A stretch of DNA of 21,051 bases. Origin: a virus. The DNA lies in IMG/VR virus record IMGVR_UViG_3300017714_000218, positions 1 to 21,051 of that record. The stretch is one strand, 5' to 3'. The position numbers and the translations under genes were made by a program. Positions 3,305-20,509 of this stretch are shown in pieces. Positions within the stretch are counted from its first letter, which is position 1, and every line of letters begins with the position of its first letter. Below the pieces are notes generated by a model. The model was not told the DNA's origin and did no database searches. It worked only from the letters and a program-made list of their open reading frames with translations.

Positions 3305-3582
3305 TAGAAAGTCCTTGTACGCTTACGTCGATCTTCTTCTACTATGCCACATCCAGAAGCAATCATACCACCAGGGCTGTATCGGTTTTGTGCTGGACGT
3401 TTAGGATTATCTACTGAAGTCATTACACCACCTTCGGCGGCTTTCTTAGTAGAGTTTCCCCAGTTTGCGGCCCCGACCTTTCGGCACTTGGACAGGGCCC
3501 CCGATGCGTAAGCGCTGGGCCAGACCTTGTACCGAGCTTTTACCTTTCGGTAACACGCGTCCTTTTTTGTTTTTTTTGCCAT
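3304..3582 (-). CDS. Small basic conserved phage protein (KDACYxKVKxRYKVWPSAYASGAL type)
   Basis: 92 residues. Residues 1-42 contain the widely distributed block KKDACYRKVKARYKVWPSAY followed by ASGALSKCRKVGAANWG, which I recognise as a domain of unknown function in phages and giant viruses (possibly DUF5872; the number is from memory). The rest is a Gly-rich tail with two GG sites (51-52 and 71-72) and a terminal EEDRRKRTRTF. The ATG overlaps the upstream stop as TAATG. In other genomes this block can occur as a small domain in virion-associated proteins; here its place among structural genes suggests the same. Confidence 0.8.
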   Translation of the reverse strand: MAKKTKKDACYRKVKARYKVWPSAYASGALSKCRKVGAANWGNSTKKAAEGGVMTSVDNPKRPAQNRYSPGGMIASGCGIVEEDRRKRTRTF

Positions 3583-18921: not shown

Positions 18922-19209
18922 ATGGAAACCAAAGCAACACTACTTGGACGTATTGCAAGCGTCAAAGCTGAAATTGAAAGATTGAAGGTTGAGCACGAGG
19001 GGTTGAGGAACCAAGCGGTTTTAAATGGTTGGGCAATATGGAACTACACTAACGACGGTTTAAAAACTAACAAGGCGCCGGATATGACATGGTGGAAAGC
19101 GCATCGCGAATCCTCATTCAAGCGCCTATGTGAAAATTCATCTGACAAGGATCACCCCGATCACAAACAATTCTGGAAGAAACCGAGCAAATTGTTTCGG
19201 GTATCGTAA
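18922..19209 (+). CDS. Small coiled-coil/Trp-rich protein, 95 aa, first gene of the right arm
   Basis: Residues 1-35 form a coiled coil (LLGRIASVKAEIERLKVEHE); the rest is basic and Trp rich (GWAIWNYTNDGLKTNKAPDM, TWWKAHRESSFKRL, FWKKPSKLF). I do not recognise a family. The start is an ATG after the leader TTCAAATAAAGGAAAGAACA, which recurs before every right-arm gene. The promoter at 18840 lies about 50 bases before the leader, so this is probably the first product of an early or regulatory transcript. Trp plus Lys clusters could suit nucleic-acid or host-protein binding, speculation only. Confidence 0.8.
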   Translation: METKATLLGRIASVKAEIERLKVEHEGLRNQAVLNGWAIWNYTNDGLKTNKAPDMTWWKAHRESSFKRLCENSSDKDHPDHKQFWKKPSKLFRVS

Positions 19210-19266
19210 AGAGTATATCGGTGTCTGCCCTGTCCCAGGGCAGCATCCGATGCACTCTTGCATCAT
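19207..19266 (+). repeat. Intergenic repeat copy 1 with alternative hairpins
   Basis: A 60-base element starting at the stop codon. Hairpin A (19211-19257) pairs GAGT/ACTC, ATCGG/CCGAT and CTGCCCTG/CAGGGCAG around a TCC loop. Hairpin B (19249-19264) pairs GATGCA/TGCATC and uses part of A's 3' arm, so A and B are mutually exclusive. A second copy lies at 19540-19598. Confidence 0.85.
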
Positions 19267-19287
19267 GTTCATATAAGGAAAGAACAA

Positions 19288-19542
19288 ATGGCTCTAACTA
19301 GAATACACGTCAACCAACATGTGATCCGCGCCAACGCTAAAAGCGGAGAATGTAACCCAGTGTTCACCGTCAAGTGTCGCAGCGAAAACACCTACGCCAA
19401 CGAGGTGTTTATCAACAGCCCATGCCGCCTGGTGTACAAACCAGACAACCCTCTATCCTGTGGCGCCCGTGTGTGGATCGAGGTGTTCGAAGAATCAGGG
19501 GTGGTTATCCACAGTGTTCTCGATAAAGAACCCGCTGAATAA
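19288..19542 (+). CDS. Conserved small phage protein (HVNQHVIRANAK / SCGARVWIEV), 84 aa
   Basis: Beta-rich protein with TRIHVNQHVIRANAKSGECN at the start, FTVKCRSENTYANEVFINSP in the middle, and CRLVYKPDNPLSCGARVWIE near 50-70. I recall relatives with the same ends (HVNQH.I..NAK, LSCGARVWIET) in phages and other marine genomes; the function is not known to me. The ATG at 19288 is selected by the leader TTCATATAAGGAAAGAACAA; an in-frame TTG upstream lies inside hairpin B and is rejected. It is flanked by both copies of the intergenic repeat. Confidence 0.8.
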   Translation: MALTRIHVNQHVIRANAKSGECNPVFTVKCRSENTYANEVFINSPCRLVYKPDNPLSCGARVWIEVFEESGVVIHSVLDKEPAE

Positions 19543-19598
19543 AGAGTATATCGGTGTCTGCCCTGGGAGGGGCAGCATCCGATGCACTCTTGCATCAT
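19540..19598 (+). repeat. Intergenic repeat copy 2 with alternative hairpins
   Basis: Nearly identical to 19207-19266. Outer stems GAGT/ACTC and ATCGG/CCGAT and hairpin B (19581-19596) are unchanged. Only the loop-proximal part differs: CTGCCC and GGGCAG pair around TGGGAG, keeping the stem while the loop varies. Confidence 0.85.
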
Positions 19599-19617
19599 TC
19601 AAATAAAGGAAAGATCA

Positions 19618-19869
19618 ATGGCTAGTTACATTATAACGCATAACGTAATTGAAAATGGGATAGCTCGAGATAGAACTTCAGGCGAAAAAAAAGCTTATCC
19701 ACACTATTTTGAATTATATGACGATGATCATGTTTTATACGCCCGTGGTTATTCTAACGACAATCAAAGTGAAGCGCTATTCGAACCACTTGATAACTGG
19801 GGCGCGGACTATGGATGCACCGACATTATGATGATATTCGAGCCTACTGGTGAAATGGTATCCATATAG
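19618..19869 (+). CDS. Small acidic protein, 83 aa, unknown function
   Basis: Begins MASYIITHNVIENGIARDR and contains aromatic beta strands (YPHYFELYDDDHVLYARGYS) and an acidic C-terminal half with ALFEPLDNWGADYGCTDIMM and IFEPTGEMVSI. No family recognised. The ATG at 19618 follows the leader TTCAAATAAAGGAAAGATCA; the in-frame ATG at 19582 lies within repeat copy 2 and is less likely. The fold looks like a small mixed alpha/beta domain. Many small acidic phage early proteins bind and alter host enzymes, but nothing here shows a target. Confidence 0.75.
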   Translation: MASYIITHNVIENGIARDRTSGEKKAYPHYFELYDDDHVLYARGYSNDNQSEALFEPLDNWGADYGCTDIMMIFEPTGEMVSI

Positions 19870-19874
19870 AACTT

Positions 19875-19898
19875 GTGCCCCAGTTACATCTGGGGTAC
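19875..19898 (+). promoter_or_regulatory. Intergenic hairpin before the zinc-ribbon gene
   Basis: GTGCCCCAG and CTGGGGTAC pair (9 bp, one G-U) around TTACAT. No T-run follows, so it is not a typical terminator. It occupies the position of the duplicated hairpins before the neighbouring genes. Confidence 0.7.
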
Positions 19899-19931
19899 AC
19901 TCTACTTGTTCAAGAAGGAAGGAAAGAAAAA

Positions 19932-20189: not shown

Positions 20190-20234
20190 GGCCCAGGCGC
20201 TGCGATAGATGATGTCTACACGCCTGGGCCTTTT
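20190..20234 (+). terminator. Long-stem hairpin, terminator-like
   Basis: GGCCCAGGCG and CGCCTGGGCC form a perfect 10-bp stem around a 21-base loop (itself with TAGA/TCTA), followed by TTTTC. The T-run is short and the next gene's leader follows at once, so it may attenuate or process the transcript rather than end it. Confidence 0.6.
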
Positions 20235-20251
20235 CATATAAGGAAAGAACA

Positions 20252-20509
20252 ATGAATATTAACATCCAGATCCAGATAGAAGACCAAGGCCAAGGCAACA
20301 ACGTACTTGATCGAGAAATTGGCCCTGGGTTTTGCTTGCAGGACGTACTAGCAGAAGTGGCTACTCATTTTTTTGACGAGGCTATAATCAAAAACAAAGG
20401 CAACATGAGCAAGGTAGCTGATGACTTGGGCTTTAAAAACTATCAGACAGCGCAAAACTGGGCGCGTAAATACGCAACTAACCGTCGCAAATATCGATTA
20501 CAATTCTAA
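20252..20509 (+). CDS. Fis-like helix-turn-helix protein, 85 aa
   Basis: N-terminal strand-like segment (MNINIQIQIEDQ) and helix (LQDVLAEVATHFFDEAIIKN) lead to a helix-turn-helix at about 43-74: NKGNMSKVADDLGFKNYQTA followed by QNWARKY. The KGNxSKxAxxLG...Q...W.RKY pattern is that of HTH_8/Fis-type DNA-binding domains. The basic tail (NRRKYRLQF) fits DNA contact. It may regulate the right arm or the divergent promoter; a small terminase is an alternative, as none is found near terL. The leader TTCATATAAGGAAAGAACA precedes the ATG, and a terminator follows. Confidence 0.8.
   Translation: MNINIQIQIEDQGQGNNVLDREIGPGFCLQDVLAEVATHFFDEAIIKNKGNMSKVADDLGFKNYQTAQNWARKYATNRRKYRLQF

Follow-up and report, generated by a model that had tools for sequence, protein, structure and literature searches.

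A repeated viral stem-loop with two conserved, competing folds at the joints of exchanged small genes

An intergenic element of about 60 bases, here called SL1, occurs twice in a 21,051-base virus contig fragment (the window, meaning the whole stretch of DNA that was analysed) and folds either as a long hairpin of ∼20 pairs or as a truncated upper hairpin accompanied by a second one; both folds are conserved. SL1 recurs in related uncultivated aquatic phages, at gene joints where one small gene has been exchanged for another or a new one has come in. We read it tentatively, and with slightly less than even confidence, as an intergenic switch of mRNA processing and stability that also serves as a homology joint for the shuffling of gene cassettes. 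SL1 is a conserved structured phage RNA outside Rfam for which the statistics back a pair of competing folds instead of a single one, and it joins two usually separate subjects: the swapping of small early genes and the punctuation of a polycistronic messenger by which newcomer genes can function immediately.

The window and its small genes

The minus strand of the window encodes a terminase, a portal, a major head protein and a transglycosylase; the terminase is 57–60% identical to those of phage 023Pt_psg01, Pelagibacter phage HTVC027P and Phage DSL-LC04. From ∼18.9 kb onwards small genes lie in a row on the plus strand. Contig L001 is 100% identical to the right 5,834 bases of the window, carries both of its SL1 copies and then extends past the window end. 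The features concerned are as follows.

18922..19209, plus strand: gene A, head of the cassette array, 95 aa; replaced by the unrelated gene A′ in L211
19207..19266, plus strand: SL1 copy 1, A/B junction, 60 nt; starts at the gene A stop codon TAA
19209..19259, plus strand: long hairpin of copy 1, AAGAGT-A-TATCGG-TGT-CTGCCCT...AGGGCAG-CAT-CCGATG-C-ACTCTT; from folding and compensatory changes
19249..19264, plus strand: alternative hairpin of copy 1, GATGCA-CTCT-TGCATC; excludes the middle and lower stems of the long hairpin
19275..19290, plus strand: Shine–Dalgarno AAGGA and start codon of gene B; pairs with neither hairpin
19288..19542, plus strand: gene B, 84 aa; PHROG 8676
19540..19598, plus strand: SL1 copy 2, B/C junction, 59 nt; starts at the gene B stop codon TAA
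19542..19591, plus strand: long hairpin of copy 2; apical loop GGGA where copy 1 has GTCCC
19581..19596, plus strand: alternative hairpin of copy 2; from folding and compensatory changes
19605..19620, plus strand: Shine–Dalgarno and start codon of gene C; pairs with neither hairpin
19618..19869, plus strand: gene C, 83 aa; its position is taken by the unrelated gene G in L086 and L176

Genes A, B and C are small ORFs unrelated to each other, and C is unrelated to G. On account of the lack of relationship among A, B and C, and because relatives carry G in place of C, gene duplication was rejected as the source of the repeat. Relatives of gene B were found in several hundred contigs, including phages of 340–520 kb and phages of Agrobacterium, Shewanella and Pelagibacter. 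The cassettes gave no PADLOC match suggesting an anti-phage defence system; gene E (window 20252–20509) matched the C-terminal helix–turn–helix of RtcR/PspF-type activators (PADLOC PDLC01995, 3.5e-10) and may be read as a Fis-like DNA-binding domain that stands alone, encoded within the early operon.

The two folds of SL1

The SL1 copies are 91.7% identical, and their sole difference is the apical loop (TGTCCCA versus TGGGAG). A 22-nt half-element pattern, scanned with up to three mismatches, matched the window exactly twice, once in each copy (0.00 matches expected). The long hairpin consists of a lower (AAGAGT/ACTCTT), a middle (TATCGG/CCGATG) and an upper (CTGCCC/GGGCAG) stem, between which lie a 1×1 mismatch and a small UGU/CAU internal loop. 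It folds at −31.7 kcal/mol in copy 1 and −30.3 kcal/mol in copy 2 and is far stronger than shuffled sequences (z = −7.2 and −5.4, respectively; 0 of 200 shuffles as good). The alternative hairpin draws on the 3′ strand of the middle and lower stems, which makes the two hairpins mutually exclusive; it ends ∼9 nt upstream of the Shine–Dalgarno sequence. The long fold is predicted to be the more stable one by about 5–7 kcal/mol in the window and by 0.5–11 kcal/mol in relatives. The original prediction had described duplicated, near-identical 60-bp elements beginning at stop codons, long-hairpin stems with an overlapping second hairpin (GATGCA/TGCATC) that ends before the ribosome-binding site, and a loop that differs between the copies while the stems are kept, and all of these were found as described.

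SL1 in related phages

Exact and structural searches added 12 copies, spread over eight related viral contigs [L086 (2), L006 (1), L176 (3), L211 (1), L218 (2), L219 (1), L220 (1) and L017 (1)]; the copy in L221 is a repeat of that in L220. Scans with half-element patterns contributed one new genuine copy (L211) amid chance matches within other sequence. The copies in L017 and L218 have little sequence in common with SL1 of the window, yet the structure is kept, and they follow an orthologue of gene A (proteins 45–54% identical). A model built without L017 scored the copy in that contig at 17.6 bits in the syntenic place (E = 0.13 in 508 kb), the L218 copies at 50.7 and 49.0 bits and the L219–L221 copy at 35.4 bits; the copies found by the model in L017, L218 and L219–L221 thus provide independent confirmations of the SL1 structure. 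In L062 (5860–5921), a hairpin that follows a stop codon and precedes a ribosome-binding site is a possible remote member (E = 0.23) and was excluded from the count.

No SL1 homologue was found by blastn against 50,697 records of isolated phages, and a covariance model found no SL1 in the three isolates nearest by terminase or gene B. A motif scan of bacterial genomes returned 32 matches, 31 of which matched the scanned motif alone, as expected by chance. In L243 (Gemmobacter aquatilis) an SL1-like hairpin for which both folds are possible lies on the reverse strand at ∼3358–3395; it is flanked by a stop codon and a start codon, and the surrounding genes of the bacterial genome form a phage-like cluster. 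The score of this hairpin is weak (26–28 bits). No SL1 was found in 199 genomes of the same family with strict filters that missed L243 too.

Conservation of both folds

The two window copies and the 12 copies from relatives were aligned (alignment A4), giving 14 copies in approximately five independent sequence classes; the shuffle control applied to this alignment ignores relatedness. For the long hairpin, 94.6% of the cells of the 14-copy alignment (∼five sequence classes) are paired, and pairing falls to 35–46% when the partner column is slid by 1–3 positions. Compensatory double changes occur at 12 of its 19 pairs and in 28 cells, compared with shuffle means of 5.0 and 7.0, and were matched by 0 of 500 shuffles, in which kinship is ignored. 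The alternative hairpin forms in 12 of the 14 copies, with 98.6% of cells paired where letters exist. It has four double-change cells (0.9 in shuffles; 0 of 500 as high, the shuffles ignoring kinship), and the number of its pairs with a double change, two, is unexceptional, being reached by 56 of 500 shuffles. The most telling site for both folds is a three-way change, in which one shared-arm base covaries with each of the two bases that compete to pair with it. Read in the order 5′ arm, shared arm and distal strand, the window group has T-A-T, and L017 and the two L218 copies have G-C-G. Given a uniform random 3′ flank, the chance of an equally stable alternative hairpin is 0.005 in the window and 0.0085 in L017; for the two L218 copies the values are 0.031 and 0.012. 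In the L219/L220 lineage the distal strand has been lost and the alternative hairpin is absent, which means that it is not indispensable everywhere. The competition of two hairpins for one arm, as originally claimed, and the covariation among homologues that had been proposed as a check on it were therefore both recovered, through compensatory changes in both hairpins of the 14 copies and the three-way change.

Only one sequence motif in SL1, GGUGUC/GCAUCC, is strongly conserved; it is the best conserved part because in the alternative state its GGUG is predicted to pair, in a shifted register, with CAUC. Two mutually exclusive conserved hairpins upstream of a start codon would fit the riboswitch or transcription attenuator that had been put forward at the outset, a reading that is now extremely unlikely and in its classical form was rejected: a U-tract is missing after both hairpins (none of the 14 copies has a run of five T), there is no terminator, and the Shine–Dalgarno sequence is neither paired by either hairpin nor otherwise sequestered. 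Apart from the short UGU/CAU loop there is no conserved unpaired pocket, the sole conserved motif being explained by pairing, and the downstream genes are unrelated and share no common metabolite. Rfam gave 0 matches at the gathering score in L001 (which carries the window copies), L017, L086, L176, L218, L219 and L220, and no Rfam family lay at or near threshold over SL1.

A DNA-level element, that is, a cruciform or folded single strand serving a site-specific recombinase (attC-like), replication or packaging, is very unlikely. As in the cassettes of integrons, an imperfect palindrome with a variable tip directly follows each small ORF of an array, and the SL1 palindrome scores on the reverse strand too. 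However, 13 of 14 copies retain a U–G wobble in the middle stem, and in a DNA cruciform this pair would be mismatched. An integron attC cassette was rejected because the paired core boxes (R″ GTTRRRY and R′ RYYYAAC) are missing, with GTTRRRY absent from all 14 copies; no integrase was seen in the early region that was read.

Gene exchange at SL1 joints

The gene order is A-SL1-B-SL1-C-D-E in the window and A-SL1-B-SL1-G-D-E in L086, while L176 has A-SL1-X-SL1-B-SL1-G-D-E, with gene X as an addition between A and B; L001 has a homologue of it (85%) 4 kb downstream. In L211 the order is A′-SL1-B, with A′ in place of A behind the same leader. L218 contains A-SL1-G and, further on, the MPRTSFGK gene followed by SL1 and the next gene, and L017 contains A-SL1 followed by the MPRTSFGK gene. 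SL1 is consequently found at the junctions A/B, B/C, B/G, A/X, X/B, A′/B, A/G and others, which agrees with the earlier claim that the element has been copied independently of the unrelated genes that flank it.

The possibility that SL1 is a recombination anchor only, a short shared PeSL-like homology (see below) whose hairpin is incidental or an insulator and whose RNA switching has no function, was given a minor share of our confidence. It is favoured by the fact that cassettes change exactly at SL1 joints and by the mosaic identity of the genes between the window and its relatives (A 81–87%, B 92–97%, C absent, D 96–98%). There is also a footprint of copying at the X/B joint of L176, where the last 7 nt of gene B precede SL1 and the joint is 98.8% identical to the B/G joint, so that SL1 was copied along with a scrap of its former neighbour. 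Homology alone, however, needs neither double changes at 12 of 19 pairs nor the three-way change, and the divergent L218 and L017 copies retain the structure in spite of having so little sequence in common.

Position at the stop codon and predicted switching

Thirteen of the 14 SL1 copies begin no more than a few nucleotides from the stop codon of the preceding gene; the exception is the X/B joint of L176, where the stop codon of gene X lies nine bases earlier. When 11 nt from the base of the hairpin were masked as a stand-in for the bases covered by a ribosome at the stop codon, the minimum-energy fold was predicted thermodynamically to flip to the upper plus the alternative hairpin in all 12 of the copies that have both. 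With the first 11 nt after the stop codon covered, AAGAGTATATC would open and TGCATC would close.

These observations also bear on coupling or uncoupling of translation, in which the ribosome at the end of the upstream gene would pick the fold and thereby set re-initiation or standby access at the downstream gene, with no RNA cleavage; we consider this explanation doubtful. The location of SL1 at the stop codon, the flip of the fold on masking there and the short distance from the end of the alternative hairpin to the Shine–Dalgarno sequence all speak for it. Against it, the Shine–Dalgarno sequence pairs with neither hairpin, and any effect on initiation is therefore expected to be indirect.

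Proposed mechanism

In the reading that we prefer, as a processing and stability switch, SL1 would act in cis between the genes of a polycistronic early operon, as an RNA element that extends from a stop codon to just short of the next ribosome-binding site. The long form would be a double-strand processing signal of the RNase III type, and processing would separate the transcripts of neighbouring cassettes, giving each its own stability and translation. A ribosome finishing the upstream gene would cover the 5′ arm, upon which the shorter hairpins would form and processing would be deferred. The cut would probably fall near the conserved UGU/CAU internal loop, and the freed 3′ arm would then refold as the second hairpin and cap the new 5′ end of the downstream mRNA; 5′-terminal hairpins act as mRNA stabilisers. 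We infer RNase III cutting and 5′-end capping, the processing step from the length of the hairpin and the known parallels. A role in recombination at the DNA level only would likewise favour identical copies, which counts against the processing model. As SL1 would bring its own boundary and leader, cassettes could be exchanged by homologous recombination with their neighbours undisturbed, as proposed for the PeSLs of T4.

A fuller version, which we regard as unlikely, is that of a ribosome-set RNA processing switch acting as an exchangeable joint: SL1 would be held in the short-hairpin state under the ribosome, the long form would be cut after release, the same arm would cap the downstream messenger, and the phages would have copied this unit to every cassette joint. 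New genes would then arrive with ready-made punctuation. If the switch is real, it would constitute a compact, portable intergenic part whose state is set by translation of the preceding gene.

Comparison with known systems

The early genes of T7 are separated by RNase III processing signals. We know of no case in which T7 RNase III sites are cassette-exchange joints with copied identical units, nor, to our knowledge, is a self-capping alternative hairpin a defining part of them. SL1 resembles the T7 early signals (such as R1.1; PMC6121014) in its setting, an early phage operon, and in its form, an irregular hairpin between genes that is interrupted by an internal loop. With about 18–22 pairs in three stacked stems and internal loops in most copies, it fits the length of the T7 type, ∼20 or more pairs. 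In the cip-cel operon of Ruminiclostridium cellulolyticum, several structured intergenic stem-loops are both cleavage signals and stabilisers of the processed ends (PMC10311766). That operon is bacterial, its sequences are different and no cassette shuffling has been reported for it.

The closest architectural parallel, to the extent that the citing papers describe it, is the promoter early stem-loop (PeSL) of T4-type phages (Arbiol et al., 2010; Comeau et al., 2014; in PMC4503421 and PMC5931544), in which short repeated intergenic stem-loops lie between small variable genes that are shuffled among relatives. By the titles cited there (PMC4503421, PMC5931544), PeSLs are composite promoter–terminator motifs. 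SL1 shares the repeated stem-loop at joints of exchanged small genes (in the window, L086, L176, L211 and L218). In contrast to PeSLs it has a second, competing and conserved hairpin, and its phage group is unrelated to T4 (HTVC023P/HTVC027P-like terminase, 57%). No promoter-like site was found within 19207–19266 or 19540–19598 using a sigma-70-like consensus, which may not be that of the host, and no terminator-like site was found at either SL1 copy, ordinary terminators being present elsewhere in the operon. Since it lacks both the promoter and the terminator features, SL1 is not filed as a PeSL; at the level of genome evolution it works like one.

Other intergenic elements

A second intergenic element, SL2, lies at window 19870–19915 before the next gene, with the consensus ACTTGTnsCCC...GGGsTACAmT, and may be closer than SL1 to a true PeSL. 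It spans 31 bases in all 11 homologous copies, with compensatory changes in the stem, and occurs in the window, L064 (at two joints), L062, L030–L032, L086, L176 and L218–L220. The constant 17-base gap from TTGTnn to TACAmT suggests a promoter with an inverted-repeat spacer. Between genes D and E (window 20190–20234) there is a terminator-like hairpin, GGCCCAGGCG...CGCCTGGGCC TTTT, with matching stem changes in L176 and L031.

Other phages have repeated hairpins of their own, of unrelated sequence, that lie after a stop codon and ahead of a ribosome-binding site [L220 (5239–5290 and 5450–5500), L147 (4368–4457 and 5371–5458), L113 and L175]. Repeated intergenic hairpins may be a widespread strategy in aquatic phages. 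In the structural region of the window, at 2487–2561, a 24-base unit is repeated three times in exact tandem (27-base match) inside a small gene and encodes GGQAKMMR repeats.
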